A DNA stretch of 64,000 bases from Leuctra nigra. Taxonomy: Eukaryota > Arthropoda > Insecta > Plecoptera > Leuctridae. The DNA is taken from the NCBI GenBank assembly GCA_934045905.1, contig OW203762.1, forward strand, positions 186,001-250,000. Direction: 5' to 3'. Made by a program: the position numbers and the translations under genes. Within the stretch, counting starts at the first letter, position 1. Every line of letters starts with the position of its first letter. Below the pieces are notes generated by a model. The model was not told where the DNA came from. It did no database searches and saw nothing but the letters and a program-made list of their open reading frames with translations. This document shows positions 1 through 31,369 of this stretch, one piece after another.

Positions 1-3000
1 GAATGTGTATTGAACTAAACTCACGGCTATGTAGATGTCAATGAATGTGTATAAAACTAAACCCACGGCTATGTTGATGTCAATGAATGTGTATTGAACA
101 GAACTCACGGCTATGTAGATGTCAATGAATGTGTATTGAACTGAACTCACGGCTATGTGTAGATGTCAATGAATGTGTATTGAACTAAACTCACGGCTAT
201 GTAGATGTAAATGAATGTGTATTAAACTGAACTCACGGCTATATAGATGTCAATGAATGTGTATTGAACTAAACTCACGGCTATGTGTAGATGTCAATAA
301 ATGTGTATTGAACTGAACTCACGGCTATATAGTTATCAATAAATGTGTATTGAACGGAACTCACGGCTATGTGTAGATGTCAATGAATGTGTATTAAACT
401 GAACTCACGGCTATGTAGATGTCAATGAATGTGTATTGAACTAAACTCACGGCTAAGTAGATGTCAATGAACGTGTTTTGAACTGAACTCACGCTATGTA
501 GATGTCAATGAATGTGTAATGAACTGAACACACGGCTATATAGTTATCAATGAATGTGTATTGAACTGAACTCACGCTATGTAGATGTCAATGAATGTGT
601 ATTGAACGGAACTCACGGCTATGTGTAGATGTCAATGAATGTGTATTAAACTGAACTCACGGCTATGTAGATGTCAATGAATGTGTATTGAACTAAACTC
701 ACGGCTAAGTAGATGTCAATGAACGTGTATTGAACTGAACTCACGGCTTTGTAGATATCAGTGAATGTGTATTGAACTGAACTCACGGCTATGTGTAGAT
801 GTCAATGAATTTGTAATGAAATAAACTCACGGCTATGTAGATGTCAATGAATGTGTATTGAACTAAACTCACGGCTAAGTAGATGTCAATGAACGTGTAT
901 TGAACTGAACTCACGGCTATGTGTAGATGCCAATGAATGTGTGTTGAACTGAACTCACGGCTATGTAGATGTCAATGAATGTGTATTTAACTGAACTCAC
1001 GGCTATGCGTAGATTTCAATGAATGTGTATTGAACTGAACTCACGGCTTTGTAGATGTCAATGAATGTGTATTGAACTGAACTCACGGCTATGTAGATGT
1101 CAATGAATTTGTATTGAACTGAACTCACGGCTATGTAGATGTCAATAAATGTGTAATGAACTGAACTCACGCTATGTAGATGTCAATGAATGTGTATTGA
1201 ACGGAACTCACGGCTATGTGTAGATGTCAATGAATGTGTATTAAACTGAACTCACGGCTATGTAGATGTCAATGAATGTGTATTGAACTAAACTCACGGC
1301 TAAGTAGATGTCAATGAACGTGTATTGAACTGAACTCACGCTATGTAGATGTCAATGAATGTGTAATGAACTGAACACACGGCTATATAGTTATCAATGA
1401 ATGTGTATTGAACTGAACTCACGCTATGTAGATGTCAATGAATGTGTATTGAACGGAACTCACGGCTATGTGTAGATGTCAATGAATGTGTATTAAACTG
1501 AACTCACGGCTATGTAGATGTCAATGAATGTGTATTGAACTAAACTCACGGCTAAGTAGATGTCAATGAACGTGTATTGAACTGAACTCACGGCTTTGTA
1601 GATATCAGTGAATGTGTATTGAACTGAACTCACGGCTATGTGTAGATGTCAATGAATTTGTAATGAACTAAACTCACGGCTATGTAGATGTCAATGAATG
1701 TGTATTGAACTAAACTCACGGCTAAGTAGATGTCAATGAACGTGTATTGAACTGAACTCACGGCTATGTGTAGATGCCAATGAATGTGTGTTGAACTGAA
1801 CTCACGGCTATGTAGATGTCAATGAATGTGTATTTAACTGAACTCACGGCTATGCGTAGATTTCAATGAATGTGTATTGAACTGAACTCACGGCTTTGTA
1901 GATGTCAATGAATGTGTATTGAACTGAACTCACGGCTATGTAGATGTCAATGAATGTGTATTGAACTGAACTCACGGCTATGTAGATGTCAATAAATGTG
2001 TAATGAACTGAACTCACGGCTATATAGATGTCAATGAATGTGTATTGAACTGAACTCACGGCTATGTGTAGATGTCAATGAATGTGTATTGAACTGAACT
2101 CACGCTATGTAGATGTCAATGAATGTGTATTGAACGGAACTCACGGCTATGTGTAGATGTCAATGAATGTGTATTGAACTGAACTTACGCCCTGTAGATG
2201 TCAATGAATGTGATTGAACTGAACTTAAGGCTATATAGATGTTAATGAATGTGTATTGAACTGAACTCAAGGCTATGTGTAGATGTCAATGAATGTGTAT
2301 TGAACTGAACTCACGGCTATGTGTAGATGTCAATGAATGTGTATTGAACTGAACTCAAGGCTATATAGATGTTAATGAATGTGTATTGAACTAAACTCAC
2401 GGCTATGTAGATGTCAATGAATGTGTATTGAACTGAACTCACGCCCTGTAGATGTCAATGAATGTGATTGAACTGAACTTAAGGCTATATAGATGTTAAT
2501 GAATGTGTATTGAACTGAACTCAAGGCTATGTGTAGATGTCAATGAATGTGTATTGAACTGAACTCACGGCTATGTGTAGATGTCAATGAATGTGTATTG
2601 AACTGAACTCACGGCTATGTGAAGATGTCAATGAATGTGTATTGAACTGAACTCACGGCTATGTAGATGTCAATAAATGTGTAATGAACTGAACTCACGG
2701 CTATATAGATGTCAATGAATGTGTATTGAACTGAACTCACGGCTATGTAGATGTCAATGAATGTGTATTGAACTGAACTCACGGCTATGTGTAGATGTCA
2801 ATGAATGTGTGTTGAACTGAACTCACGGCTATGTAGATGTCAATGAATGTGTAATGAACTGAACACACGGCTATATAGTTATCAATGAATGTGTATTGAA
2901 CTGAACTCACGGCTAGTAGATGTCAATGAATGTGTATTGAACTGAACTCACGCTATGTAGATGTCAATGAATGTGTATTAAACTGAACTCACGGCTATAT

Positions 3001-4084
3001 AGATGTCAATGAATGTGTATTGAACTTAACTCACGGCTATGTAGATGTAAATGAATGTGTATTGAACTGAACTCACGCCCTGTAGATGTCAATGAATGAA
3101 ATTGAACTGAACTCAAGGCTATATAGATGTTAATAAATGTGTATTGTACTGAACTCAAGGCTATGTGTAGATGTCAATGAATGTGTATTGTACCAAACTC
3201 ACGGCTATGTAGATGTCAATGAATGCATATTGAACTGAACTCAAGGCTATGTGTAGATGTCAATGAATGTGATTGAACTAAACTCTAGGCTATGTGTAGA
3301 TGTCAATAAATGTGTATTGAACTGAACTCAAGGCTATGTGTAGATGTCAATGAATGTGATTGAACTAAACTCTAGGCTATGTGTAGATGTCAATAAATGT
3401 TTATTGAACTAAACTCACGGCTATGAAGATGTCAATGAATGTGTATTGAACTGAACTCACGGCTATGTAGTTGTCAATGAATGTGTTTTTAACTGAACTC
3501 ACGCCCTGTAGATGTCAATGAATGTGTATTAAACTGAACTCACGGCTATAAAGATGTCAATGAATGTGTATTGAACTGAACTCACGGCTATGAAGATGTC
3601 AAAGAATGTGTTTTGAACTGAACTCACGGCTATATAGATGGCAATGAATGTGTATTAAACTGAATTCACGGCTATGTAGATGTCAATGTATGTGTATTGA
3701 ACTGAACTGACGGCTATGTAGATGTCAATGAATGTGAATTGAACTTAACCCACGGCTTTGTAGATGTCAATGAATGTGTATTGAACTGAACTCACGGCTA
3801 TGTAGATGTCAAAGAATGTGTATTGAACTGAACTCACGGCTATGTAGATGTCAAAGAATGTGTATTGAACTGAACTCACGGCTATGTAGTTGTCAATGAA
3901 TGTGTATTGAACTGAACGCACGGCTATGTAGATGTCAATGAATGTGTATTGAACTGAACTCATGGCTATGTGTAGATGTCAATGAACTGAACTCACGGCT
4001 ATGTAGATGTCAATGAATGTGTATTGAACAGACCTCACGGCTTCGTAGATGTCAATGAACTGAACTCACGGCTATGTAGATGTC
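1..4084 (-). repeat. 42-bp minisatellite spanning the exon 3 donor site
   Basis: About 96 tandem copies of a 42-bp unit (some 44 bp with an extra TG) run from the left window edge into the end of exon 3. Read on the minus strand, a unit is the last 15 exon bases (GACATCTACATAGCC), then a donor GTGAGTTCA, then about 18 further intron bases. The plus-strand form of the donor (TGAACTCAC) is nearly invariant, while the spacer varies more. The terminal copy at 4061-4084 is the real exon end. The unit is 14 codons long, so short frames repeat a 14-residue peptide, but the copy next to exon 3 has an early TGA. I read this as intron 3 of the minus-strand gene, not as coding sequence. Confidence 0.93.
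353..2020. repeat. 847-bp higher-order duplication inside the minisatellite
   Basis: The order of variant units between about 353 and 1172 recurs 847 bp further on. Shared diagnostic variants are the ACGCTATG unit (491 and 1338), the TATATAGTTATC unit that follows it, the GGCTAAGTAG units and the GGCTATGCGT unit (1001 and 1848). This shows a recent block duplication of about 20 units on top of the older 42-bp amplification. Confidence 0.85.
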
Positions 4085-4294
4085 CAGAGCGCCAGAAGCC
4101 TGCGGTCTTAAGTGAGCGTTCAGAACGAGGACTCTGAACAAGATCTTGTGTCCTGGCTTGTAGACCATCTTGTCCGTCTGGATGAACACCGAGTAGCTCT
4201 TGTGCACGTATTGCAGGCTCGTGGAGTTGACAAACTCAATCCCGTCAGTCCCTCGTGCAGTCAGGCTGTACACCCCTGGCCCTAGGTCGCCGAT
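4070..4294 (-). CDS. Exon 3 of a TEP/alpha-2-macroglobulin-like gene (MG1 end, MG2 start)
   Basis: This 225-bp exon (75 codons, phase 0 at both ends) is flanked by TTTAG at its start and GTGAGT at its end. It encodes residues 86-160 of the predicted protein. It starts IGDLGPGVYSL, has an N-glycosylation sequon NST near residue 108, and carries SVFIQTDKMVYKPGHK, the hallmark start of macroglobulin domain 2 in TEP, CD109 and alpha-2-macroglobulin proteins. The family comprises secreted proteins that trap proteases or tag microbes through a thioester; the thioester itself would be far downstream, outside the window. It joins exon 2 in phase 0, giving the expected MG1-to-MG2 reading. Both ends sit inside tandem arrays of their own splice sites. 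The family call is firm; TEP versus CD109 versus alpha-2-macroglobulin is not resolved. Confidence 0.93.
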
Positions 4295-4551
4295 CTAAAC
4301 ACAACACAAGCTGTACACCCCTGGCCTTAGGTCGCCGATCTAAACACAGCACAAACTGTATACCCCTGGCCTCAGTTAGCCGATCTAAAAAACACAAGCT
4401 GTACACCCCTGGCCACAAGTCACCGATCTAAACGCACAAACCCAACCTGTACAACCCTGGCTCCAGGTCGTTGATCTAAACGCACAAACCCAACCTGTAC
4501 ACCCCTGGCCCCAGGTCGCCGATCTTAACACACACAAGCAGTACACCCCTG
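4266..4551 (-). repeat. Tandem array of the exon 3 acceptor site (about 45-bp unit, six copies)
   Basis: Six full copies and one partial copy of a 43-48-bp unit occur. On the minus strand each holds the first 29 exon bases (ATCGGCGACCTAGGGCCAGG and on), then about 16 intron bases ending in TTTAG or TTAAG. Acceptor-like junctions fall just above 4294, 4339, 4384, 4427, 4475 and 4523. The lowest one is the exon 3 acceptor. Use of the next acceptor would add 45 bases, but the frame then meets the TAG of the downstream acceptor. Confidence 0.9.
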
Positions 4552-7319
4552 GACCCTCATTCACGAAAATGGGGTAAGCTAGGGTAGCTAGGGTTATGGC
4601 GGGTTAAAGTGGGTAGGCAGTGGTATTGGTATTCACGAAGATTTTATTACGACTTACCCCAGAGGTTAGTCTACGCCAGTCTACCCCTACCTCAAGGCAG
4701 GGGTAAGAGGTAACTTTGTATTAACCGCTATTTTTTCAACTTGACATGTGTCAAAAGAACTGTTTGAAGTGATTCCTTCGCGTCGTCATCTGATCAGCTG
4801 TGTTGTGTGTTTATTGTGTCTACGTTGTCTTTTACTTACATTTTCTATGCTAGTTCATGTTTATTTAATCATTCCACAAAATATCGGATAGTATTATTGG
4901 TTCTAGTAAGTCAATCCATGGACCATAAACTCCAAAAGATTTTCTTCAACACTAGATATAAGTAATAAACTACATATTTTTATGTTGCAGAGTTAAGAGT
5001 CGGTTGCATAGCTGCCATTTTGAAATTTTTTTCATTAATTTTCTTCCCAAAACAGGGTATACTCTTTCGCTTCTAGTTTCTACAAGTCTCCATGAATATT
5101 AGTGAAAATTTTTGTAGTAATAGACTAGATATACACGCAAAAATGCCATAAAAGATATTTTAATCCGGCGTTTATTTTCTCTCAAAATAATTTGTAAAAA
5201 TGCCACTCTAAACGAGGGGTGGGGATCAGTTTTTGCAGTATTTTGAAAGCTCTAGGAGAAAATACTACTACTACAATGAAGTGTTTTATGCATTTAACCC
5301 ATTGGAAATGTCATTGGCTATCTACGAAATTAATTCCTATATTGTGGCAGTTAAAATATGATTGTGAGCATGGAAGTGCTAATGCACGATTACGGGTTTT
5401 TTCTCTTGTCAAACATGAGTGAGCACTACTGTTGTATTTACTACAAATCGTAATGGATTGTAATGAAATATTTTATGGCGCTAGTTAAGTCATGTCTAAG
5501 TGGGTTAAATGGATGTCCCCTTAGAAAGAAATACTACATTCCGCTTAAATAAATGTTAAAAATGACTCACGGGCAGCTGCAGTCACACTTCTTTATCACA
5601 AGTTTGTATAACCACCTTTAGAATGAATGGCTTTATCAAGAAAATCACGGTTAGTATCAACGGAAAGCGTGATTATTTGACAAGGAACACACGAAATTTG
5701 GAAGACCTAGCATTAAAATGGGCTTGGTTATCGCGGAAATAGTAAGGTAATCCACTGAGAAACTATCACTCAAAAATGCACACGAAATCTATATAATCTG
5801 ACAATGTTTTTACACCAGTAGTTCACCACTTTCCTGACAGAATATGCTAGTGAAAATCGTTGAAACTGCTTTATCGCAAGTAATTTTTCTAGGATTGATT
5901 CACGGCCAACTCGATACTTTCCACTGGGCAGTGATATATAAGTACCTTGCTTTTCTGAGAAGTTTCCTTACGTTCCAATGGTTACCTATTTATTCATGAA
6001 TATATTTATCAATTTCAATATTTTTAGTAGAATTTTGATATTCAACAGATACCTGTGGCACTTGTCAGGTTACAAAACTATTATTATGGACGTTTTGGAA
6101 TTAGAATTATGTTATAACTCATTGTTATATCATTTATACTAAATGATATTTATTTTGCCATTTTATAGAAATTGAGTTACTTATTTACTTATTACTAATG
6201 ATTGATTACAATTATTTGTCGGCCTGGTTTTCCACCATGAAAATAAAGAAGTAGCAAATGAAGTAAAAGCGGATTTATAATAATGTGCTTTTTAGGACCA
6301 ATACCTACAGTCCTAAAAAGCTGTGGCATACGAAAACTACATGTATACTTGCCCAAAACCCATGTCCAAATTTTCTGCTGCAACAAGAAGTTGAACGGAA
6401 CATTATATGACGCCGTAGACCTGTTTTTCTCATCGCAACTAAGCAAATATTATTCTCTGATCCACAAATAATCCATACTGCAGATTTTATATGAATGTAA
6501 TCAACGAATCTTTCTGAATAGGGAAAGTGAATGAAGTATTGATTTTTTGAACTATGATGCGCTTGAATGTTGAACATTACTTGAGTTTCTGATTGACAGT
6601 GCACGATACTCCTTTCTCCTTATAGGCGTTTAATTCAAATATTCAGGTTGGCTCGTTATGAGGAACTTGTGCGTTGCCCAGTTTGTCATTGGTTAGCTAT
6701 AACATGAGATTTCGCCACCCTCCCCTGCTGTCTATTTGTCGGGATCATACTATTTAAATTGTCTATATCGTACAATTGGAAAACGCTCAGTGTAACTCGT
6801 TTATGAGCGAGCACTGATACGCGCAATACCTATACCTGCTTTCCACACCCTCTTGCTTGAATACCCACAGAGAAATATTCCAGATGCAGTGACTTAAAAC
6901 ACTTTTCAAAGCATGCCAAGACAGGAACGATGAAATTTCAAGGAAAATACTATAACCTATCATTATCAAAGAAAGAAGCACACAATATTTCCATTTAGAT
7001 TTCATTTAAATTGCCGCCAACAAGCGCGAACTGCGAAACGAAAGTCACAAGAAAGTTCCGGTGATAATCCCGAGGTGTGTCACAATCCAAGCGCATTGCT
7101 CTGGACTCGACAAAACTCTTTGACTGGAACTTGCATTGTTTTATCTGTGGTAATGTTAAAGATGAACGAAAGAAAGGCGACAAAATTTCCCTTGCAAATA
7201 TGAACCCTACTTCACTACATTCAACAGTCCTATGCCCAAAAACGATCCGAATAGGTAATAATCCAGCGGCTTACGTTTGAAAGAGATTTGTTTGCTGTGA
7301 ACGCACGTTACCATAGGCA
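4552..7319. other. Gene-free stretch with a G/A-rich and C/T-rich inverted patch
   Basis: No credible coding region. Near 4560-4720 there is a patch with GGGGTAAG, GGGTTAAAGTGGG and, opposite, CTTACCCC, TCTACCCC and AGGGGTAAG, with TATTCACGAA and CATTCACGAA inside. It looks like a degraded foldback element. The rest is AT-rich with nothing I can name. Confidence 0.4.
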
Positions 7320-7560
7320 ATGTCACCAGACGTATTGCTCAGAGAAGAACATCAACGCAGCAGAGAGGAGAGAGAAAATTCTAAATTTGATAGAGCAGCT
7401 GATTTGGTGTGTGATCATTTTAAAAATAAATTAGCCGACGGAAAAATTGTCTTAGTTCCGCAAGTGTGCGAAAAACTCAGAGCATTTTTAGTGCAAGAAG
7501 GTGCCGAAGCAATCGATGCAGAACAGTGCCTCACTGCATTTATCAACAGCAAGATTTTGA

Positions 7561-7659
7561 GTAAGTTTTGCAGTTTTGTTTCCTTTCACGTTCAGTCTGG
7601 AAATTTGCTTAGCATAATGTGTGCAAATACAATTGTGTGTGGGTCAACTGTATAATTAG
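7561..7659 (+). other. Probable intron in the repetitive-family pseudogene
   Basis: GTAAGT at 7561 and TATAATTAG ending at 7659 bracket 99 bp. Removing it restores one frame (ILKDDLVTED) between two open stretches. An intact spliceosomal intron suggests the copy arose by DNA-level movement, not through processed RNA. Confidence 0.65.
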
Positions 7660-8149
7660 AAGACGATCTTGTCACTGAAGACCTGACAATAGCATCCGAA
7701 TCACCCGACATGATACTGAGACAAGCCGCTGCAGTCATCCAAACAGAAATTAATAATATTCCAACAGCCGATTATTATCATTTTCCATCCGGAGTGTCTC
7801 TTCAAGCTTCTGAAAAATTTGTACCACAGCGTTTGGCTACATTATTGAAGTTGATAATGGATCCGCGAGCACACAGAGAAGATGACACAGAACTCGAATC
7901 AGACGAAACAATAAAACGACGATATTTGACAATCGCAGAATGCTTAATTTACAGTTCACGCCGTTTTAACAAAAAAAAAGTAGTTCCTCCGTTTCATTTG
8001 GGTCTGATGGCTCAATTACACCATGAGTATGGAAATCGTAATCTCATATAGACTCTTCATTCGTATGGACCAAGGAGTTTACGACTTTCTGCAGGCATAT
8101 TTCGCCTCACGCACCAAAAACACCAGGCAAGCAACGGGTCACGTAGCAC

Positions 8150-8520
8150 GCGGTCAAACCCGCACAGTTCCAATAGTTGGTTCCAGGAATATTTTAATTG
8201 CGCGCCAATGATTACACTTAGGAGATGCGGTTTGTAACATTGCTTAACTGAGACTCTAAGGAATCACCTCCAATTTTTAGATTCCGCGACCTTACAGCAA
8301 GTTGAATAGATCACTTTTTGTGCATTCTGAATTATTTTCCAAACGTTCCCAGACATATTTTAATTACGTGCCACCCAAAGTGTAAAAGTGAATCGAAAAA
8401 TGGGAGGTGATTCCTTGGAGTCTCGGTTAAATGTTACAAACCGCATCTCTCTAAGTGTATTCATTGGCGCGCAATTAAAACATTACTGTAACTCTTGGAT
8501 TGGCGCTCGTAAGCGCGCGT
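8150..8520. mobile_element. Foldback MITE inserted in the pseudogene
   Basis: Two arms of roughly 90 bp or more are inverted copies: one around 8195-8290, the other around 8383-8485. Shared blocks include AGATGCGGTTTGTAACAT, GGTGATTCCTT and ATTGGCGCGCAATTAAAA as its complement. The loop is about 95 bp. Outer limits are uncertain because similarity fades outward. Confidence 0.65.
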
Positions 8521-8946
8521 GCGAATGCAATCGTTTTCTGCATGGAATTTTTCCCCGGGAGGAGTGGCGGCTAGCCGGGAGTGGTTTTAAGCCCGTAGCG
8601 TAGGCCGGTACTTTCCTTGGGTTGGCCCCTCCAGAAGAATATAACTACAACCTCCTTGGTATGGACTCTGAGCGAGTTATTATGAATTACGCTCTTTCCT
8701 AACAACAATTGCTGAGGATCAGTTGTCAAACAGTGATGAGATGTACACTCCCCCAAATAATAAACGGTACTCGAAAGAAAATGAATTGACTGATTAAGGT
8801 TTGATGGCATCATCCCATGAAGTCAGTGCTAACACATTATCTAACTCTTTTAGGTGAGCTCTGATTTCATTGGTAATAACAAGGATTGATTGTCAAGAAA
8901 CCGGCCCAGCAGCCAATTCGTTTTGTACCAAGTACCGTTTATTATT

Positions 8947-8973
8947 TATAATAATAATAATAATAATAATAAA
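8947..8973. repeat. (AAT)n microsatellite
   Basis: About eight AAT/ATA triplets followed by AAATATCTTTATTTG, a layout often seen at the tail of retroposed elements; no clear element body is attached. Confidence 0.8.
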
Positions 8974-11175
8974 TATCTTTATTTGTAGAGCGAAGTTAAG
9001 CCAGTGGCTTCTCTTCCACTTAACTCTTTTGTTAACATTAGTGGTACAGTGTCAAGTAAATATGTGAATAAAAGGAAAATTTTACAATGTATAATTCGAC
9101 TATGGATAAGTTATTGATTGACATTAAGGAACAAAAAACATATGGATAATTAGAGTAATAATAACAAAGACAATAGTAACAGATACTTGAAGGAACTGAA
9201 AACTTCATGATTAATTAAATTACAAGGTATTTGTAATTGGGGGAGTGTACGTACTCACAGGCTTTAAAACAGAAACGAGGGTGGCAACTTTCAAGATCAA
9301 ACTGTAACGAATGAAGTAGTGTCAACTAGAATGAAATGGACTTATGAAACCACATTAAAAGTGCCAAAATAGAGAATGAACAAACTAATTCACTTCCAGA
9401 AACCAACTATCCGACCAGAACCACAGAGAATGCATGGCATCTATGACAAGTTGCATACATTTCTGGATTATTCATGTGTTCACAACAACAGCAAATATAT
9501 CGCCTTGATATTATTGCGACAAGTTCACCGACCAATTTTCAAGGAATTTAAGTTGATTCAGATTACCAGACAATACCATTTTGGACTGGCTTCAATACCT
9601 CTACCGGAACAACAACTGTCAATACAACATTGGAACAAGGAGAGATGTTTGCAAAGAAATGTGGTCAACAGTTTCACGTGCACACGTTCGACCAACAACT
9701 GTACGCCCGTCGCGCAGCAGATCAAGATGAGCAATCCGGAGGAGTACCTACTCCAACTTGATTGTTCGTTTTGGTGGCTTCCATAATCTCTGCACGTTCA
9801 TTGCTTGTATTGGCAAGATTTGGGGCGATGCTGGTTTGGCAGACATCTTGAGTGACTCTGGCAGTTACGCGACACACACAGTAAACGCCATGCTGTCAGG
9901 AAAGCAATTCTTCAGAGCTGTCCGAGGGTTAACACAAGTGTACGAAACCCTCATGAACATTCTGATCGTAAATTGCTTGAAGTGGATGGAGAGCACTGGA
10001 AAAGATGTCACTGAACTGGATGCACTTGTGGCCTGCCTTATAAATGCTCACACAACACATGAAGAGGAACAAGGATTCAAGGCACTTCAGGCGCTAGTTG
10101 AAGAGATTGACCAGCACTTCGTTCCTGTCTTGAAAGAGTATCGACAATACGGCCGAGCCAATAGCCCAACATTTCTTTTCTGGGACAATCTCATCGTAAC
10201 CTTGGAGATCATGCTTCTGAACATTCGCGCAGAAAGGGATAAACTCCATGTTCAGACGCAAGTTAACACTCTGCCACACTTCTTTGCATGTAACCGACAG
10301 AACTATGCTCGCTGGGCCACGTACTACGCCGAAGACATGCTAACATCCCTTCCTCCGGCGATAGAAACCGAGTTCGACAATGGCCACTTTTCTGTCAACT
10401 TCACTCCCGGTTGCTTCCGAGGTGTGTGGAGTAACATGGCCGTGGAAATGTCAGTCATCAGAGACACCAAGGGAGGAAACACTGTAAGTGGCATTGTCGG
10501 CTTCACGTTGAAGGAGAGCGCCGTTCTGAGGTGGACGCTAACATGTCACGTGCTGGGCTCGTACGACAAAGAAATGAAACGACGAAAAGGACTACCATCT
10601 TCAGCGTTCGTCCACGATCAGGATAAACCCTCCAGGAAAGCTCGAGATTAGAGAGAAGTGACGAAGATCATAAAATCACACATCCAAGACAACATGGTCG
10701 ATCCATTTGACACCGAAAACGTTGTCAATACATCCTTGTCATACTGTGTCGAGACAGGCAGAGCTATGCTCAAAGAGTTTGTTCAATCACTACTTGAGCC
10801 GCACCAGGAGGAGAGTAACAGCAAAAAGCTTTTCAACGATCCCATCAAAAAATCAAGTCTCTTATCTTTCAAAGACATGCAGAAGGGAACTAAGATAATG
10901 GTGAGCAGTAAATCAAAGATGGCGTTGCTCGTGCGGTGTAGTGTCCAAAAACGCGTCGTTAACTGAGTTCTATGCTGCACGCTATTGAGATATGCAATGC
11001 AAATTATTTGACAGAAGTAGTGTTGCATCCCAGTCATGCGTCGAGATGACGGTATGATGATGCAATGAACCAGATTCGAGTGTAGAACTGCAGCGTCGAC
11101 TAATTGTTCTCCTAGTTGCGCCCGAAGGCTGCGCCCGCAGGCAAATGTGACATCTGTATTTTATTGCCTTTTTAT

Positions 11176-15655: not shown

Positions 15656-16091
15656 GAAAATTTTAGTGACTAAATATTTTCATGAACAATGAAAAATGTA
15701 AATTAAATAATTTTGTATTTTTTTGTGTTATGGTCTATTATTGGTATAAATGTAATATCTCGACTTTTTAATAACAACATTATTAACTCTAATTAACTGT
15801 AAACGTATTGTTAACATAAATTTATTGAATCGCATTCGAGGTCTAATCTATGGGGGTGACAGGCTCTAAGTGGTGAATTGATTACGCGGAGGATTTATGG
15901 AGTTTAGGAATCGGTCCAGAAGTTGTCGTATACAATACTTCTTAGACTAATCTTTTGAAGATAATGACTGATTTAATGCAGTGATCTGGCACAGCACGTG
16001 TTCAAAGTTAGGGGGTTGTGTTTGTTTCATGCTTTAAGAATCAGTTCAGTTCAAAGTTTTCATCCGAGTGGATCGTAAGCATTCAATAAAA

Positions 16092-19000
16092 ATGGAGTGT
16101 GCTGTTGGAATATATTTAAATGAAATCTGCAAAAATAGTTCATATAAGTGCTACAGTTCTCTTTACTCTGGTGCAGAAGATTGTGTAAAGGATATTAATG
16201 ATTTTTCAAGTGTTGATAAAAAATTGCTAAAATGTAGAGTTAACGAAAACATTGATTCGGTATGTATTTATCATGAAGTAAAGTTCCTCATCAAATTCAA
16301 TCATTTGTATGGTAAAAGGTGCTGTTATCCATTTAGTGTACATAAAAAGAGTGTAAAGATATCGCTTCGAGTGATAACGTTGAATTTCGCCGAAACTCAC
16401 TCGGGTCTTGGTTTGATACCTGGGAAATCCTTGTGTTCAAATTGCCTAGCCAAAATACGTTCAGGTGCTACATTATTAGATGTTTCGATTGCTTCTGTGT
16501 TTGTACCAGACAACGATGCACTCAGCGGCGGTATTGATGCAGCTAATGAAGTGTGTTCTGCCCTCAAAATGTCTCCTTTTAAAGTGCAAAAAATGAACAT
16601 AAAAAAGCGCACTATTGCTGTCAAAAAGAAGGTTGACATAATTTCGAAAGAACTTCTGTCGAAAGTGGGGGCTTCATATCAACTTGCTGCGGAGAGTGAG
16701 AGTGAGAGTGAGAGTGATAGCGACAGCGACCAAGACGAAGCCAAGGACAAATATTCCGACTTAATAGCTAAACTAAAAACGAGGATTAAGAGTGCAACGA
16801 CAAGTGACGAAAAAGTTAAAACCATTAGCTTGCTGCCTGAATCATGGAGTGCAAACAAAGTGTCAAAGGAGTTCGAAGTTTCTCTGTACATTGCGAAGAA
16901 AACTCGACATCTTGCAAAAAAATATGGAATCATGCCTACAATACCTCAAAGCGCTCGTCATCATGGAACTGACCAAAACATTGTGGATGTAGTTGTGTCA
17001 TTCTATGAGAGCGAAGAAGCCAGCCGATTATGTCCGGGTAAAAAAGATTGCGTTTCAGTTAGGAACAAAGAAGGAAAAAAGGAGAGCAAACAGAAACATT
17101 TAGTGCTGGGCAATCTCAAAGAACTTTATGAACTTTTCAGACTGAGACATCCCGATTTAAAAATAGGATTTTCAAAATTTGCAGCATTAAGACCCAGATG
17201 GTGTGTACTCCCTGGGTCAAGTGGGACCCATTCAGTGTGCGTGTGTTCTTACCATCAGAACGTGAAATTTATGCTAATCGGTGCACACATCAAGCATACG
17301 TATAAGGACCTCCTTCGCATGATGGTGTGTGACATTGAGTGCGAGAACTGTATGCTTCATGACTGCCCTGAGTGTCCTGGACCCGATGAAGTGAGGAACA
17401 CACTGCTTGGTCTTCTGAATGAAGAGGAGTGGGATGAGGAACTCCAGTACAAGCAGTGGGTTTCAACAGATCGCTGCAGACTCATCAACGTCAACGAAAC
17501 ATACACAGATTTCATTCAAACATTAATTGACAAACTTACCAGTCTTAAACAGCATCATTTTATATCCTGTATACAGTCAGCTGCTTTTAGAGACAGAAGG
17601 GAAACTCTACAGCGAAGAGAGTGCATCATGCATGATTTTTCAGAAAACTTTACATTCGTGGTCCAGGATGAAATACACAGTTACCACTGGGTAAACGAGC
17701 AAGTTACTCTTCACCCATTTGTTTTTTACTTGAGAGACGATGATGGCGAGGTAATCTCCAGGAGCGTATGTGTAATTACTAGGAAAACGCTCAGTGTAAC
17801 GCGTTGATGAGCGAGCACGGGTACGTGCAAATTCTCGAACCGGAAATGCGTACACAACGCACAGAAAACATATACATCCATATTGAATTGATTATGATAT
17901 CAACTTAAAAGTGTATGCTTTCATCAAAACTTTAAAATAGCATCTAAGCACCTGGTTCATAAAGCAAATCAGAATCAATTTTCAATTGGCACTGGAAAAC
18001 ATTCATTTCGATACTTCATTACTGACAGATATTAAAAATGTAAATAACTTCATACGTTCTTAACTGATTGGGATGAAATTTTGTAAAATAAGAGACAATA
18101 TTGGTCTTAATGATCATGCAAAATATGAGTTTGATCAGAATGATCGAAGACCGTTTTCATTTTTCAGCCTATCAGGAGATATTTATTTAAATTTTAACCA
18201 ATGAATGGATTTCAAAAAAAAATATGGTATGCAAACAGAGAAGGTTGGTTTTTAGCCCAGGAGTTTTAGACGAAATTTAGACCAAACCTACAAATAAATA
18301 AAGTAAATCTGAAAATTGGCAAATATGTCCTATTTGATGTCCCGAATAACATACTTAAAATCCCCAACTTTCCTCGAACCGAAATTATGTCTATCGAAAA
18401 TATCATTAAAAGCCAATAAATCTTGAATTTCGTCAGACTTGAATAACTAGGAAAACGCTCAGTGTAACGCGTTGATGAGCGAGCACGGGTACGTGCAAAT
18501 TCTCGAACCGGAAATGCGTACACAACGCACAGAAAACATATACATCCATATGGAATTGATTATGATATCAACTTAAAAGTGTATGCTTTTCATCGAAACT
18601 TTAAAATAGCATCTAAGCACCTGGTTCATAAAGCAAATCAGAATCAATTTTCAATTGGCACTGGAAAACATTCATTTCGATACTTCATTACTGACAGATA
18701 TTAAAAATGTAAATAACTTCATACGTTCTTAACTGATTGGGATGAAATTTTTTAAAATAAGAGACAATATTGGTCTTAATGATCATGCAAAATATGAGTT
18801 TGATCAGAATTATCGAAGACCGTTTTCATTTTTCAGCCTATCAGGAGATATTTATTTAAATTTTAACCAATGAATCTGAGTAACGCGTTGATGAGCGAGC
18901 ACGGATACGCGCAACACCTCGAACCGAAATTCTGTCTATCGAAAATGTCATTAAAAGCCAATAATTCTAAAATTTCGCCACAGATTTGTATAGAAATCTC

Positions 19001-21011
19001 AAAACATTCCAAAAATATTGGTCCAAATAACCATGCAAAGCTTTAAGTTGATCAATTGAACCTTTATGATTGAACTGTTCCGTGTTAATTTTCAAAAATC
19101 ACAGGATCTCCTTCAAAAAATATACCTGAGACCACTCATATGATATAAGTGTGTCTACACAATATCAGATCGACTGTTGAACGGTCATTATCAGTTTCAT
19201 TTGCGTTTGAAAGTTTCTGCTCTAACTACCTTGCCTTGAACTGAAGAGTCGAAGTCGCCGTGAATTTGACAGCCAACACGCTAATAGTCCGTAAAATGTC
19301 AATAACGTTTGGATTTAAACACAGATTAGTATGAAAATTGTCAAAAATGCAGATAATGTTGGACCCAACCATCATGCGAAGTTATAAGTTGATCGTTCAA
19401 TCGGTTATAGTTTAAATTTCTAAAAACACAGGAAAGATGGTTTTAAATTTTAACCAATGGGAGGATTTGGCTGAAACTTTGTTTGATTGGGTACAATGTT
19501 GGGGGTAATGACTTGTCAAAATTTCAATTTGATCAAAACAACCAATCGAAAGTTAATTTTTTTTAAATTTGAACCAATCAATGGATTTCAAAAAAATTAG
19601 GGTCTGCAACAATCAGAAATGTTACGTACATGTGTGCAAAATTTCAGCTCGATCGAAGAAAAACTCTGACCTGTATATCGTCAGTAACAGAAAAAAAAAA
19701 AAACAAACAAAAAAAAAAACAGAGGTCCGTGCCAAAAGAGCCAAATGGAGACGCTCGCTTCGCTCGCTCAAAAATCTCTAAATATTCCTAAAATGTTAGT
19801 ATCAACCCTTATGATTGAACTGTTCCTTGTTAATATTCAAAAATCACAGGATCTCTTTAAAAAAATATACCTGGGACCACTCAAATCATATGATATTAGT
19901 GTGTACACAATATCAGATCAATCTGTTGAACGGTCATTATTAGTTTCATTTCGTTTGAAACTTTCTGCTCTAACTACCTTGCCTTGAACTGAAGATTCGA
20001 AGTCGCCGTGAATTTGACAGCCAACACGCAAAATGTCACTAAAATTACAAAACCTTTTGAAAATAACTACAGATTTGACTGAAAATTGGCAAAAATACCT
20101 TAAATGTTGGTACCAATGACCATGCAAAGTTTTTAGTTGATCGGTCAATCGGTTCTAGTTTAAATTTCAAAAATCACAGGAAAAATGGTTTCAAATTTGA
20201 ACCAATGGGTGGATTTGGCTGAAATTTATTATGATTGGGTACAATGTTGGTTGCAATGTCTTTGCTAAATTTCAAATTGATCAAACCAACCAATCGAAAG
20301 ATAATTTTTTTTAAATTTGCACCAATCAGGGGATTTCAAAAAAATTAGGGTCTGCAACAATCAGAAATGTTACGTACTTGTGTGCAAAATTTCAGCTCGA
20401 TCGAAGAAAAACTCTGACCTGTATATCGTCAGTAACAGAAAAAAAAAAAAAAAAAAACAAAAAAAACAGAGGTCCGTGCCAAAAGAGCCAAAAGGAGACG
20501 CTCGCTTCGCTCGCTCAAACTAATTAGTGACCACCTTCAACACACAACAACAGCCGTCTATACTTTTCAAAAAGTTGTCTTGGAATATATAAAATCATTT
20601 GCTCCCCACATAACCTCCATTGTATACTTTTCGGATGGGGCAGCTGGACAGTACAAAAACAGAAAAAATTTCGTCAATGTTTGTTACCATTTAAGTGATT
20701 TTAGACTCGGAGCAGAATGGCACTTTTTCGCAACGTCCCACGGCAAAGGGCCGTGTGACGGGATCGGCGGGACTGTCAAGCGACTCGTCTCTAAAGCGAG
20801 TCTGCAGAGACCAAGTAATAATCAAATACTGACCGCAGAGGACATGTACGAGTTTTGCAGCTCCAATATTAAAGGCATACAGTTTTTCTACGTCACCTCA
20901 CAATCCATTCAACAAGAAGAGATCAATCTTACGCCACGATATCAAGCCGCACGAACAATACCGAAACCAGAGATCACCACTACTTCACACCAACAGACAC
21001 ACACTCGCTGA
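16092..21011 (+). pseudogene. Transposase of the long-TIR transposon, split by Helentron insertions
   Basis: The first part, 16092-17777, gives about 562 residues. It has an acidic Ser-Glu/Asp run coded by AGTGAG repeats (16692-16730), a helix-turn-helix-like stretch SWSANKVSKEFEVSLYIAKK, a Cys-rich segment CDIECENCMLHDCPECPG, and HDFSENFTFVVQDEIHSYHW. At 17778 the frame enters an inserted Helentron. It resumes at 20526 in the same codon phase (VCVI then SDHLQHTTT), and runs 161 residues to 21008 with IVYFSDGAAGQYKNRKNF and FFATSHGKGPCDGIGGTVKR. Joined, about 723 residues. The spaced Asp residues suggest a DDE/D nuclease; proteins like this recur in aphid and cnidarian genomes. An in-frame GTG exists at 16068, but ATG at 16092 is the plain start. 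Inactive because of the insertion; otherwise the frame is clean. Confidence 0.82.
17779..20517 (-). mobile_element. Nested cluster of Helentron-type elements inside the transposase
   Basis: On the minus strand the cluster has 5' termini (TGAGCGAGCGAAGCG) at 20517 and 19770, each followed by an A/T homopolymer tract, and 3' termini (CCTAG, preceded by the GCGTT hairpin arm) at 17779 and 18447, with a partial 3' end near 18882-18900. Segments 17779-18232 and 18447-18872 are near-identical direct copies. The order implies insertion of Helentrons into Helentrons. The segment 19780-20517 matches copy A in inverted orientation. Confidence 0.75.
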
Positions 21012-21204
21012 GGATCTACAGGACATCCCAGTCAGAAAACTTCAAAACAGTTACTATCCAACAGTAATGACATCATCTAGAACCTATCATCTTACTTCAG
21101 TCAACTCATCCGGCGTTTATGGTACGTAATACAATACAATTAAATTATTTCACGCTACGGCGTTGATCGAAATTTTACTCGCTAGTAGTACGTTTGAAAA
21201 TTCG

Positions 21205-21869
21205 TATTTCCGTAACTAACCCGAAACACAATATGAAACTAAGCGGAGTTTGTAGACAAAGGATGACTTTAAATAAATATATTTTTTGCACGGCTGTAAT
21301 GTTGACCCTTCTCTGTCAAAATGGGGTCAAATATGCCAAATTTTGACATTTTAAGAGTTTTGAGACAAAATTTCTGTTTGAAGGGGGAAAAACACACACA
21401 CTTTAGGAGTAAAATTTGTTGATACAGATGTGTAGTAATCTCACAAATATTTTGGGTTTTTTAAATTTAGCCCTTCATGGAAAAATATCGTCATAAATTA
21501 ACTGCAAAATGCAAAATTTTTGTGGTATTTAAACCCAATTTTTGACCACAGTTATGGAAATTTAATGAATACAAGTGAATATACCATGGTAGTGTCATAT
21601 CTAAGGAAAAGATTGCCGCTGGTTTCAAGTTGATATCAATAATAGTGTTGGAATGAACATCATAAATATGAGAGCGTCTTTTCGTCGATTTTTCGCCACT
21701 TTCAAACTTTGGCGCCATGTAACTTGATATTGGCGCATCACAAAAATAAAAGCGAGGTGTGGCTAAGCTAAGCATATGATAGGTAACAACTGTGCAAAAT
21801 TTGAAAAGAATAAAAAATCAGGCCGCGGCCACTTTTTTTAAACTGGTCGATGGGCCGTGGAACGACCCT
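21205..21869 (-). repeat. Right terminal inverted repeat of the 6.9-kb transposon
   Basis: Inverted partner of 14987-15655, ending in CGTGGAACGACCCT. Confidence 0.88.
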
Positions 21870-22644
21870 TGATGCACCAGATTTTATTGAACCAACACAT
21901 TTTGTTTATAGTCCAGAGTCTAAGCTGCAAAAAGGGGCCTAACCTACTACAAATTGCAACAGAAGGTTTTTTGATGTTAATCGATTTATAAAAATGCCCT
22001 CTATACAGTGTTGTGATTAGATAATTTTATTTTTATCTAGATAAAGATAAAGATAACCTTCCAAAAATTTATCTAGATAACATAATAGATAAATTTCCAA
22101 GAAATCATCTAGATAATAGATAAAGATGAAAAATAATTATCTATATAATTGTAATAGATAATAGATAAATTTTTTAGCAAATACTACTTTTCCCCAAATA
22201 TTTTTCCGAATCCTAAATTTGGAACTCGAGTTTTTTTTAAAAATGGGGCCGTCAAAAAAAGCCAACTAATGTGACTAAATGAAGATGATTTTTCTTTTTC
22301 ATATCATCTGACATTTGAGGTTTGTGCATGTTCATAAATACAAAATTACGTGAATTTTTTATTTTTTATCTAGATAATTGCCAATAGATACAATATTTTT
22401 ATCTAGATAAAGATAAAGATAACCAAATATATACAAAGCATTGAAAGACCGGTCCGTAGAAAAATATATGATTCATAGAAATAAGAAGATTTTCTTTTCA
22501 AATATTGATTCTTAGATTTCGCAAATTCAAGAAAAAAATTGTCTTAAATCCGTCATTTTAAACATTTTAGAGGGTATACCTAATAAATGTGGTCATGGTC
22601 ATAGGGAGATCATGGTTTAGATGATAAATAATCATTTAAATGAT
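21870..22644. other. AT-rich intron 2 segment with ATCTAGATAA motifs
   Basis: No gene. Between 22015 and 22440 the motif ATCTAGATAA(AGATAA) recurs many times in both orientations; it may be a degraded foldback element. Confidence 0.45.
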
Positions 22645-25600
22645 GGCGCCTGCATGTTAACGGCAACTGCACCTGAATGTTGACGACTACTGCACCTGCA
22701 TGTTGACGACGCCTGTACCTGAATGTTGACGACGCTTGTACCTGAATGTTGACGCCGCCTGCACCTGCATGTTAACGACGCGTGTTCCTGAATGTTGATG
22801 ACGCCTGTACCTGAATGTTGACGACGCCTGTTCCTGAATGTTGATGACGCCTGTACCTGATTGTTGACGACGCTTGTACCTGAATGATGACGCCGCGTGT
22901 TCCTGAATTTGACGCCGCGTGTACCTGTATGTTGACGACGCCTGCACCTGAATGTTGACGACGCCTGTACCTGAAGGTTGACGACGCCTGCACCTGAATG
23001 ATGACGACGCCTGTACCTGAATTTTGACGACGCCTGTACCTGAATGTTGACGACGCCTGTTCCTTTATGTTGACGCCGCGTGTACCTGTATGTTAAAGAC
23101 GCTTGTACCTGAATGTAGACGCCGCGCGTACCTGAATGTGGACACCTCGTGTACCTAAATGTTCACGACGCCTGCACCTGAATGTTCACGACGCCTGCAC
23201 CTGAATGTTGTCGACGCTTGTACCTGAATGTTGACGACGCCTGTACTTAAATGTTAATAACGCTTGTACCTGAATGTTGACGCCACGTGTTCCTGAATGT
23301 TGACGCCGCGTGTACCTGTATGTTGACGACGCCTGCACCTGAATTTTGACGACGCCTGCACCTGAATGTTACCGCCGCGTGTTCCTGAATGTTGATGATG
23401 CCTTTACCTGAATGTTGACGACGCTTGTACCTAAATGATGACGCCACGTGTTCCTGAATGTTGATGACGCCTGTAATTGAATGTTGTCGACGCTTGTACC
23501 TGAATGTTGACGACGCTTGAACCTGAATGTTGACGACGCTTGTACCTGATTGTTGACGACGCTTGTACCTAATTGTTGACGACGCCTGCACCTATATGTT
23601 GACGACGCCTGTACCTGAATGTTGATGACGCCTGTACCTAAATGTTGACGACGCTTGAACCTGAATGTTGACGACGCTTGTACCTAATTGTTGACGACGC
23701 TTGTACCTAATTGTTGACGACGCCTGTACCTATATGTGGACGCCGCGTGTACCTGAATGTTGACGAAGCCTGCACCTGCATGTAATCGACGCCTGCACCT
23801 GAATGTTAACGCCGCGTGTTCCTGAATGTTGATGACGCCTGAACCTGAATGTTGACGACGCGTGTACCTGAATGTTGACGCCGCTTGTACCTGAATGTTG
23901 ACAACTTCTGTACCTGAATGTTGACGACGCTTTTACCTGAATGTTGACGACACCTGAACCTGAATGTTGACGACGCCTGTACCTGAATGTTGACGACGCC
24001 TGCACCTGAATGTTGACGGCGCCTGTACCTGAATGTTGACGACGCTTGTACCTGAATGTTGACGCCGCCTGTACCTGAATGTTGACGACGCTTGTACCTG
24101 AATGTTGACAACTTCAGTACCTGAATGTTGACGACGCTTTTACCTGAATGTTGACGACACCTGAACCTGAATGTTGACGACGCCTGTACCTGAATGTTGA
24201 CGACGCCTGCACCTGATGTTGACGCCGCCTGTACCTGAATGTTGACGACGCCTGTACCTGAATATTGATTACGCTTTTACCTGAATGTTGACGCCGCCTG
24301 TACCTGAATGTTGACGACGCCTGTGCCTGAATGACGAATGTTGACGACGCTTGTACCTGAATGTTGACGACGCATGCACCTGAATGTTGACGCCGCCTGT
24401 ACCTGAATGTTGACGACGCTTGTACCTGAATGTTGACGACGCCTGCACCTGTATGTTGACGCCGCCTGTACCTGAATGTTGACGACGCTTGTACCTGAAT
24501 GTTGACGACGCCTGCACATGCATGTTGACGATGCCTGTACCTGAATGTTGACGACGCTTTTACCTGAATCTTGACGACGCCTGCACCTAAATGTTGACGA
24601 CGCCTGTACCTGAATGTTGACGACGCCTGCACCTGAATGTTGACGACGCCTGCACCTGAATGTTGACGCCGCCTTTACCTGAATGTTGACGACGCTTGTA
24701 CCTGAATGTTGACAACTCCTGTACCTGAATGTTGACGACGCTTTTACCTGAATGTTGACGACACCTGAACCTGAATGTTGACGCCGCCTGTACCTGAATG
24801 TTGACGACGCCTGTACCTGAATATTGATTACGCTTTTACCTGAATGTTGACGCCGCCTGTACCTGAATGTTGACGACGCCTGTACCTGAATGTTGACGAC
24901 GCCTGCACCTGAATATTGATTACGCTTTTACCTGAATGTTGACGCCGCCTGTACCTGAATGTTGACGACGCCTGTACCTGAATGTTGACGACGCCTGCAC
25001 CTGAATATTGACGCCGCCTGTACCTGAATGTTGATTAAGCTTTTACCTGAATGTTGACGCCGCCTGTACCTGAATGTTGACGACGCCTGTGCCTGAATGT
25101 TGAATGTTGACGACGCTTGTACCTGAATGTTGTCGACGCCTGCAACTGAATGTTGACGCCGCCTGTACCTGAATGTTGACGACGCTTGTACCTGAATGTT
25201 GACAACTCCTGTACCTGAATGTTGACGACGCCTGAACCTGAATGTTGACGACGCCTGTACCTGAATGTTGACGCCGCCTGTACCTGAATGTTGACGCCGC
25301 CTGTACCTAAATGTTGACGACGCCTGTACCTGAATGCTGACGACGCTTTTACCTGAATGTTGACGCCGCCTGTACCTGAATGTTGACGCCGCCTGCACCT
25401 GAATGTTGACGACGCCTGCACATGCATGTTGACGATGCCTGTACCTGAATGTTGACGACGCTTTTACCTGAATCTTGACGACGCCTGCACCTGAATGTTG
25501 ACGACGCCTGTACCTGAATATTGATGACGCTTTTACCTGAATGTTGACGACGCCTGTGCCTTAATGTTGACGCCGCGTGTACCTGAATGTTGACGACGCC

Positions 25601-26715
25601 TGTGCCTGAATGTTGACGCCGCGTGTACCTGAATTTTGAATGTTGACGACGCTAGAACCTGAATGTTGACGACGCTTGTACCTGAATGTTGACGACGCTT
25701 GTACCTTTATGTTGACGACGCCTGCACCTGAATGTTGACGCCGCCTGTGCCTTAATGTTGACGCCGCGTATACCTAAATGTTGACGACGCCTGTGCCTGA
25801 ATTTTGACGCCGCGTGTACCTGAATGTTGAATGTTGACGACGCTTGTACCTGAATGTTGACGACGCCTGCACATGCATGTTGACGACGCCTGTGCCTGAA
25901 TGTTGAATGTTGACGACGCTTGTACCTGAATGTTGACGACGCCTGCACCTGAATGTTGACGCCGCCTGTACCTGAATGTTGACGGCGCCTGTACCTGAAT
26001 GTTGACGACGCTTTTACCTGAATGTTGACGCCGCCTGTACCTGAATGTTGACGCCGCCTGCACCTGAATGTTGACGACGCTTGTACCTGAATGTTGACAA
26101 CTCCTGTACCTGAATGTTGACGACGCCTGCACCTGAATGTTGACGACGCCTGTACCTGAATGTTGACGACGCCTGTACCTGAATGTTGACGACGCTTGTA
26201 CCTGAATGTTGACGACGCCTGTGCCTGAATGTTGTCGCTGCCTGTGCCTTAATGTTGACGCCGCGTGTACCTGAATGTTGACGACGCCTGTGCCTGAATG
26301 TTGACGCCGCGTGTACCTGAATGTTGAATGTTGACGACGCTTGTACCTGAATGTTGACGACGCTTGTACCTGAATGTTGACGACGCCTGCACCTGAATGT
26401 TTACGCCGCCTGTACCTGAATGTTGACGACGCCTGTGCCTGAATGTTGTCGCTGCCTGTACCTTAATGTTGACGCCGCGTGTACCTGAATGTTGACGACG
26501 CCTGTGCCTGAATGTTGACGCCGCGTGTACCTGAATGTTGAATGTTGACGACGCTTGTACCTGAATTTTGCGACGCCTGCACCTGAATGTTGACGACGCT
26601 TGTACCTGAATGTTGACGACGCCTGCACCTGAATGTTGACGACGTCTGTGCATGAATGTTGTCGCTGCCTTTGCCTTAATGTTGACGCCGCGTGTACCTG
26701 AATGTTGACGACGCG
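22645..26715 (-). repeat. 23-bp minisatellite spanning the exon 2 donor site
   Basis: About 175 copies of a 23-bp unit. On the minus strand each is GTCGTCAACATTCAG (the last 15 bases of exon 2) followed by GTACAGGC (the first intron bases), so the junction CAG|GT recurs every 23 bp, with GTACAG, GTGCAG and GCACAG variants. The copy at 26690-26715 is the real exon end. Partial-unit duplications (TTGAATGTTGA) break the phase in places. Three units equal 23 codons, which creates long spurious frames rich in Arg, Gln and Ser (up to 228 codons). I treat these as by-products and not as genes. Confidence 0.93.
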
Positions 26716-26890
26716 GGTGGCGCCTGGAGGCACCACGACGCTCTGACGTAGCTGCACGGTGTTGCCGGCGTCCTGACGCCCACCCACCTCCACATCGACG
26801 CTGGTCGACGTCGCCACCTGTTGCGTGGTGACGGACACGTGGTAGTCGCTGTTGGGGCGCACCACTCTCGGCGCAATCACAGTGTAGAAC
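26698..26890 (-). CDS. Exon 2 of a TEP/alpha-2-macroglobulin-like gene (MG1 domain)
   Basis: This 193-bp exon has acceptor ATATTCAG ending at 26891 and donor CAG|GTACAC at 26697. With two bases from exon 1 it encodes residues 21-85. It reads GFYTVIAPRVVRPNSDYHVS, the typical opening of macroglobulin domain 1 in thioester proteins, continues with VDVEVGGR and VQLRQSVVVPPGAT, and ends RVVNIQ in phase 0. It is much more GC-rich than its surroundings, as a conserved exon would be. The last 15 bases are the exonic part of the 23-bp repeat unit. A read-through frame runs about 297 bases past the donor into the array. Confidence 0.93.
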
Positions 26891-26987
26891 CTGAATATCA
26901 CCAGTACTTTCACTCGTTGCCCAGTTTGCGCGCACTCGGAATGTTACAATTTAAAATTGATTCAATTGCACTTTAATCGCGCTATAA

Positions 26988-27516
26988 TCGCGCAATGTAT
27001 TGAATACGAGCTAACTTTGGCGCGTTTGGCGCACTATGATCGCGCAATGTATTGAATAAGAGCTAACTTTGGCGCGTTTGGCGCACTATGATCGCGCAAT
27101 GTATTGAATAAGAGCTAACTTTGGCGCGTTTGGCGCACTATGATCGCGCAATGTATTGAATAAGAGCTAACTTTGGCGCGTTTGGCGCACTTTGATCGCG
27201 CAATGTATTGAATACGAGCTAACTTTGGCGCGTTTGGCGCACTATGATCGCGCAATGTATTGAATAAGAGCTAACTTTGGCGCGTTTGACGCACTATGAT
27301 CGCGCAATGTATTGAATAAGAGCTAACTTTGGCGCGTTTTGCGCACTATGATCGCGCAATGTATTGAATAAGAGCTAACTTTGGCGCGTTTGACGCACTA
27401 TGATCGCGCAATGTATTGAATAAGAGCTAACTTTGGCGCGTTTGGCGCACTATGATCGCGCAATGTATTGAATAAGAGCTAACTTTGGCGCGTTTGGCGC
27501 ACTATGATCGCGCAAA
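26988..27516. repeat. 52-bp tandem repeat in intron 1
   Basis: About ten near-identical 52-bp copies containing GCGCAATGTATTGAATAAGA and GGCGCGTTTGGCGCACTATG. They lie wholly within intron 1 and end about 98 bp before exon 2. Unlike the other arrays of this gene, the unit has no splice junction. Copies differ at single sites only, implying recent spread or homogenisation. Confidence 0.92.
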
Positions 27517-27736
27517 CTCGATTTCGACAATTTTTTTTTTTTTTCCACCTAATGTCGCGAATCTGAAGCGTACTGGAACACATACTTCACAGTGTAGTGC
27601 GCATGCTCTATTGCACTTTACTGCTAGTTTATCCGTCATTAGACTTGACTATTTTATGATGAAAAACATCACTAAATGTTCCTATCTCTGTCCTTGGCGC
27701 CGCGGCTGCTCTCTGGCGAGTGAATGTGGTACTTAC

Positions 27737-27798
27737 CCTTTAGCCTGGACTTGCAGCGAGCCGCCGAGGCAGGCCAGCACGGCCACATAGATGATCAT
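27737..27798 (-). CDS. Exon 1 (signal peptide) of a TEP/alpha-2-macroglobulin-like gene
   Basis: ATG at 27798 begins a 62-bp coding part, MIIYVAVLACLGGSLQVQAK plus two bases (GG), then donor GTAAGT. The peptide has a hydrophobic core at residues 2-13 and a small-residue site near residue 19, as in a secreted protein. Joining to exon 2 in phase 2 makes a Gly codon and yields QAKGFYTVIAPRVV, as expected at the mature start of this family. The sequence just upstream (CTGTTTCAG ending about 27817) could be an acceptor, so a separate 5' UTR exon may lie further right. Confidence 0.88.
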
Positions 27799-31279: not shown

Positions 31280-31369
31280 ATTTTGACTTGACGTTCAGTG
31301 TAGTTGCTGCAGTTGCTGTTTATATAGTGTAATTAGTGAACTACGTATGTACATTGAGCTCGTACAATC

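Follow-up and report, generated by a model that had tools for sequence, protein, structure and literature searches.

Junction-spanning minisatellites in a TEP/CD109-like gene of the plecopteran insect Leuctra nigra

How can the splice junctions of a gene come to lie within long tandem arrays, each repeat unit of which carries the edge of the exon together with the edge of the intron? The question is raised by a stretch of 64,000 nucleotides of the genome of Leuctra nigra (Plecoptera), positions 186001-250000 of contig OW203762.1, referred to here as C2, in assembly GCA_934045905.1 (536 Mb, 144 contigs). This whole stretch, termed the window, harbors part of a minus-strand gene that belongs to the TEP/CD109-like branch of the alpha-2-macroglobulin superfamily and extends past the window. 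The gene contains six junction-spanning arrays, found at two donors and four acceptors, with three inside the window and three outside. By the seed test described below, these arrays are real and are not due to chance. They are probably minisatellites of the type called mirages in amphioxus, hidden by splicing and amplified on the intron side.

An earlier note on this DNA had described three arrays, with units of 23, 45 and 42 bp, at the exon 2 donor, the exon 3 acceptor and the exon 3 donor, respectively. Repeat finding and the sequence itself bear out all three (Table 1). Every unit of these arrays holds the exon-intron junction and extends into the intron, and the body of the exon stays single-copy, as the note had also stated. 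The note gave exactly 15 exonic bases for both donor units; this is correct for exon 3 and has to be replaced by 17 for exon 2. Its suggestion of running a tandem-repeat finder over the gene confirmed the three arrays and revealed that the description had been too small, with three more junction arrays lying outside the window. Across the six, the exonic share ranges from 9 to about 80 bases per unit, and the unit lengths (23, 45, 42, 93, 23 and 89 bp) follow no frame rule. In the exon 3 donor array the unit reads GACATCTACATAGCC/GTGAGTTCAG... across the junction. Array sequence accounts for 99.8% of intron 4 (18,066 of 18,099 bp), 91% of intron 13, 71% of intron 3, 19% of intron 2 and 4% of intron 5, and the exon 4 donor lies 59 bp from the first array acceptor in intron 4. 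Among the copies of the exon 14 array, those nearest the exon are the most alike (0.996 vs 0.972). The letters at the junction are AG/GT at the exon 2 donor and the exon 5 acceptor, and CC/GT, AG/AT, AG/AT and AG/AA at the other four, so that an AG/GT proto-splice site, present at two of the six, is not what they have in common.

Table 1. Exons of the TEP/CD109-like gene in the window and tandem arrays of the gene; positions refer to the window unless preceded by C2
Feature	Position	Strand	Basis
Exon 1, coding part, signal-peptide-like MIIYVAVLACLGGSLQVQAKG, donor GG/GTAAGT	27737..27798	-	sequence and Zootermopsis TEP alignment
Exon 2 (...PPGATRVVNIQ, then gtacac)	26698..26890	-	sequence, homologs and Zootermopsis TEP alignment
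Exon 3 (IGDLGPGVYSL...DIYIA, start of MG2)	4070..4294	-	homologs and Zootermopsis TEP alignment
Exon 2 donor array, 23-bp unit GCGTCGTCAACATTCAG/GTACAG, ~175 copies, 17 exonic + 6 intronic bases	22649..26714	-	
Exon 3 acceptor array, 45-bp unit ...TTTAG/ATCGGCGACCTGGGGCCAGGGGTGTACAG, ~7 copies, ~30 exonic bases (one mismatch)	4265..4556	-	
Exon 3 donor array, 42-bp unit GACATCTACATAGCC/GTGAGTTCAGTTCAATACACATTCATT, ~127 copies overall, 15 exonic bases	1..4084, on to C2:184661	-	
Exon 5 acceptor array, 93 bp x 195, 69 exonic (two differences) + 24 intronic bases	C2:164046-182187		
Exon 6 acceptor array, 23 bp	C2:89545-89781, second block 94366-96878		
Exon 14 acceptor array, 89 bp x 16, ~80 exonic bases	C2:31441-32904		
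Intron 1 array, 52 bp x 10, ~90 bp from exon 2 acceptor, non-spanning	26978..27515	.	unit matched no exon edge

The identity of the gene is supported by homology. Among the 120 proteins listed of 437 homologs, the joined exons share 48-62% identity with insect TEP/CD109 proteins, the best matches come from termites, Clastoptera, a cockroach and other hemimetabolous insects, and a near-identical protein was not found. The exons align with a Zootermopsis TEP, including the segment GCGEQNMLNF, in which we take GCGEQ to be the thioester motif of the TEP/CD109 family. TED_complement matches are located at C2:33026 and C2:31381, and an MG2 match in the N-terminal part of the gene falls below the cut-off. 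Between C2:213.8 kb and C2:31.4 kb, 18 exons or exon candidates are recognized. The 57-Mb contig C2 begins short of the C-terminal exons, which were not found, and its first 300 bases contain no obvious telomere repeat. Two candidate exons, at C2:42840-43090 and C2:73209-73334, correspond to one variable TEP region and are possibly alternative. The former, one of the 18, resembles other TEPs only slightly and may represent an alternative exon of that region. A search of Rfam at gathering scores gave no match.

Whether so many junctions would be caught by chance was judged from all arrays between exon 14 and exon 1 (C2:31380-213802) that were reported by Tandem Repeats Finder (TRF) with a period of at least 10 and at least 4 copies. 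There are 16 of these, and six overlap an exon end. When seed units are placed at random relative to the 36 exon ends, 0.106 such overlaps are expected against the six observed (P ~4e-10), and leaving out the second block of the exon 6 array changes little (P 2e-10). Outside the window, where the arrays were not selected by the original finding, 3 of 11 are seeded at a junction against 0.07 expected (P ~3e-5). The claim that junction seeding is unlikely by chance thus stands. Some of the exon coordinates that enter these counts are off by a few bases, those of the exon 2 donor and exon 5 having been corrected. A second copy with 0-3 mismatches in 24 bases is present within 400 bp of 6 of the 36 exon ends, and the remaining 30 have at least 7 mismatches.

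The copies within the arrays carry decoy splice sites. In all arrays the decoy dinucleotides are preserved about as well as the other positions of the unit: GT/AG identity is 0.926 vs 0.932 at the exon 2 donor, 0.941 vs 0.944 at the exon 3 donor, 0.990 vs 0.976 at exon 5 and 1.0 vs 0.984 at exon 14. Selection against decoys is therefore not seen in the dinucleotides. At exon 2 the first two decoys have no GT, a pattern that was considered as selection and then dropped, the nearest decoys at other junctions being intact. An origin of the arrays as pieces of mobile elements or satellites is unlikely for the six, as each unit matched its own exon edge only; the edges in that comparison included 40 bp of flank, so that the match is partly the array itself, and the exonic share was counted separately.

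Junction arrays also appear in several unrelated genes of this genome, namely in a cluster of P450 genes and at seven places, the ends of exon-like frames, on another contig, C1. For the P450 genes, 36 loci were picked from 98 listed, and TRF (period at least 10, at least 3 copies) reported arrays in five of them (L039, L052, L054, L057 and L067). The arrays of L054 and L039 span one and the same junction in paralogs with a 37-bp unit, TTCCCTGAACCAGACAA/GTGAGTAG, in 5.5 and 3.6 copies. By eye, L055 has two copies followed by an insertion, and L036 and L056 have one to two decayed copies, so that the copy number at this one donor runs from 1 to 5.5 among these paralogs on contig C3, like steps of growth. 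The array of L052 begins about 36 bp inside its intron. As an observation on inserted elements, the insertion in the junction array of L055 (C3:19.52 Mb) is bordered by element ends like those of a ~4.6 kb insertion in the exon 6 array of the TEP gene (C2:89781-94366), both borders of which have similar element ends, CTAGGAAAACGCTC...GCGTTGATGAGCGAGCACGG. A resembling end is also found near position 28100 of the window.

The places on C1 come from a scan for the donor motif AGGTRAGT repeated three times at 15-45 bp spacing, which gave 940 matches, compared with 401 for the motif read backwards. About 100 of the 940 matches were listed, and they fall into seven separate arrays in C1:0-29.9 Mb. 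Each of the seven begins where an open frame of 44 to 199 codons ends, and its unit includes the donor; the frame was picked by the author out of three in each case. In the six arrays where they were counted (all except L075), the exact exonic letters common to the next copy number 36, 35, 2, 12, 8 and 11. Pfam places two of the frames, as Ras (4.9e-8, the Rab frame) and neutral ceramidase (4.6e-25); weaker matches are C2 in Pfam (0.19) and a monocarboxylate transporter in NCBIfam (E 0.039), and for the first frame Pfam gives only weak, unrelated matches. We presume the seven to represent a gamma-glutamyltransferase (the first frame), a monocarboxylate transporter, a C2-type protein, a Rab, an Ig-type protein, a neutral ceramidase and one without an assigned family. 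A search of the PDB with three short C1 exons returned nothing significant (best E 0.81, 0.55 and none). The scrambled motif TGAGRTGA gave 430 matches and its reverse 418; those listed represent three arrays on C1 and one place at C2:25.19 Mb, which may hold two arrays. Seven donor-motif arrays in 29.9 Mb compare with four or five scrambled-motif arrays in 93 Mb (P 0.006 or 0.012 by a binomial test), and none of the flanks at the four scrambled-motif places could be read as spanning a coding exon end. Evidence for a genome-wide pattern thus comes from a single donor motif in part of C1 and from the P450 cluster, and not from a full count.

The earlier note knew of nothing like a junction-seeded minisatellite of this size. 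Such structures have a precedent in amphioxus, where minisatellite-like tandem duplications of exon-intron boundaries, termed mirages, are reported for Adh3 and for the globin genes BflGb6 and BflGb9 (PMC3087553), with PGBD5 and TnC added by a further source (PMC3902484). They occur at 5' and 3' boundaries, with an extra AG/GT in many units; their copy number is unstable, the results suggest regular splicing, and their origin is described as unclear (PMC3087553). As in the TEP arrays, the unit combines exonic with intronic letters from a single junction, and both donors and acceptors can be affected. The TEP arrays differ in belonging to another phylum, in numbering six in a single gene and in their size, with as many as 195 copies and a length of up to 18 kb, whereas the mirages of BflGb6 have 6 and 3 units (PMC3087553). 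Instability and undisturbed splicing are features reported for the amphioxus mirages, whereas the TEP arrays are known from the sequence of one assembly. Other systems are more distant. In human segmental-duplication genes, internal tandem repeats at exon-intron boundaries are counted among 27 intron modifications (PMC2812944); they are like the TEP arrays in site, are described as variable and able to create novel introns between paralogs, and the accessible part of that source mentions no large intron-side array. Intron gain through tandem duplication that copies splice signals is also described (PMC4974935, PMC2891723), although such duplications make a new intron, whereas the TEP arrays lengthen existing ones and have AG/GT at two of six junctions. 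The introns of earthworm metallothionein genes contain minisatellites, without mention of a junction-spanning unit in the part of the source at hand (PMC12783039). No insect case was found among the papers listed by the literature searches, which mostly did not reach subscription papers. Junction-spanning minisatellites are thus known as amphioxus mirages, and what appears to be new is a copy number far above that given for BflGb6, the presence of six in one gene and the occurrence in an insect.

As mirage-type minisatellites, which is how we think the TEP arrays are best understood, they would have arisen in a few steps. A short tandem duplication would happen to include a splice junction. 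The duplicated junction would leave no trace in the mRNA provided that splicing uses the copy at the exon body, and hence would survive. Later slippage or unequal exchange, the likely engine, would then enlarge the array on the intron side, since copies that grew into the exon would be removed by selection. Splicing would have to ignore the decoys, intron 4 would formerly have been short, and short introns of this insect may become long in this way. Exon edges would be seeded more often than intron interiors, for instance because exons are GC-rich and transcribed. Being hidden by splicing does not explain the excess of seeds over intron interiors.

Several results weigh against this reading and its extension to the genome. 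The exon ends of the TEP gene are predictions, placed by homology and splice consensus. A clear gradient of identity towards the exon is seen in the exon 14 array only, and the wider splice motif is less preserved than the rest of the unit (0.889 vs 0.932 at exon 2, 0.864 vs 0.929 at exon 6 and 0.969 vs 0.984 at exon 14). A null model based on whole array length expects 4.0 overlaps (P 0.12). Of 3000 random positions in the gene region, 600 have a copy with 0-3 mismatches in 24 bases within 400 bp, compared with 6 of the 36 exon ends. Neither comparison shows an excess at the exon ends, as much of the region consists of the junction arrays; the seed test is judged to be the right null, since an array holds exon letters only if its seed did. 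Among the 36 P450 loci, junction arrays are confined to one junction family. In eight TEP-paralog loci (C2:24.8 Mb and C13) no array with a period of at least 10 and at least 4 copies was found, and the one repeat pair there that was read against its exon lies inside the intron. With so few junction arrays in these loci, the TEP gene of the window looks exceptional. On C1, five of the seven frames lack a firm family match in Pfam, NCBIfam and PDB, and one of these arrays, L072, has only the 2 exonic letters in common with its next copy. The match totals for donor and scrambled motifs count units and not arrays. Tandem CAGGTAAGT, a stricter donor motif, gave 0 matches vs 8 for its reverse, and tandem TTTTCAGG, an acceptor motif, 2 vs 40, so that neither is enriched.

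The excess of seeds could be accounted for if they prefer exons that are GC-rich and transcribed, with inner duplications purged and those at the edges surviving, so that the junction itself is not the target. This seems possible, though we lean against it. The GC contents of the six units (0.52, 0.38, 0.54, 0.52, 0.39 and 0.58), set against 39.5% for the 264-kb stretch of C2, are in keeping with it, and the spread of exonic shares is what an exon bias clipped at the edges predicts. However, the units of the exon 3 donor and exon 6 arrays (0.38 and 0.39) are no GC-richer than the background, and two arrays, at exon 10b and at C2:25.194 Mb, halt 3 bp before an acceptor without containing exon letters, which hints that the splice region matters.

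A bolder proposal is that splice junctions are where an active, genome-wide process initiates tandem duplication, which might be linked to transcription or to co-transcriptional splicing. It would represent a main route of intron lengthening, and with hundreds of intact decoys in genes such as this TEP, the spliceosome would have to choose a site for its position beside the exon body, its strength being no guide. We regard this as doubtful. The earlier note had suggested a process that starts duplication at splice sites, with breaks, R-loops or short homology such as AGGT as candidate causes. The excess of seeds in the TEP gene over random seeding, the growth to the intron side and the recurrence in other genes support its observations; AGGT homology as the driver, with AG/GT at two of six junctions, is not supported.

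At the other extreme, duplications may occur everywhere at one rate, without any preference for junctions, and those that span a junction would survive as invisible to selection. Random seeding of this kind accounts for arrays staying out of the exon body, and is in line with the nulls that show no excess and with the absence of an array from most of the P450 junctions sampled. It appears improbable, as intron interiors should be equally invisible and represent almost the whole of the 182 kb, whereas junctions hold 6 of the 16 seeds against 0.106 expected, and all seven listed donor-motif arrays lie at frame ends, whereas none of four scrambled-motif arrays could be read in this way.

That the arrays are functional, for example by regulating exon inclusion or generating protein variants through the splice sites of the copies, is given little credence. 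The decoys do retain their splice dinucleotides, and beyond exon 2 no stop interrupts the frame for about 100 codons, with the third decoy, at +69, in frame. In contrast, the unit lengths ignore the frame, read-through past the exon 3 donor is ended by a stop 10 codons on, and the exon 5 and exon 3 acceptor units contain in-frame stops; an expressed coding repeat is rejected on the same grounds. Finally, an assembly artefact is very improbable indeed: long arrays are hard to assemble and the contig starts before the C-terminal exons, but there is no N in 264 kb of C2, the units have many variants with unique flanks at the array ends, and a like anatomy recurs at separate loci.

Other repeats and elements are found near the gene. 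A 13-bp array of 218 copies (C2:37071-39884) stops 3 bp from the exon 10b acceptor and abuts the junction without spanning it, with no exon letters. The array at C2:25194000-25194125, from the scrambled-motif scan, likewise stops 3 bp before an apparent acceptor, with an open frame behind it and no exon letters. At positions 29959-30951 of the window, about 2 kb upstream of exon 1, a 39-bp array of 26 copies has one open minus-strand frame; an upstream non-coding exon of the TEP gene could lie here. A hAT-type transposase frame occupies 31358-33571 on the plus strand (DUF4371 and Dimer_Tnp_hAT in 31817-33571). On the minus strand, 49637-52658 contains reverse transcriptase frames, presumably R2-like, with RVT_1 (E 3e-24) in 50925-52658 and a weak C2H2-like finger.

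If upheld with RNA, the arrays of L. nigra would add a second animal phylum for the junction arrays named mirages, which in the literature searched are found only for amphioxus, with the boundary repeats of human genes as a relative, as far as the source describes them (PMC2812944). They would also provide, in intron 4, a traceable way of intron growth, and a natural setting in which to learn how splicing selects one site where as many as about 200 near-identical ones lie side by side.

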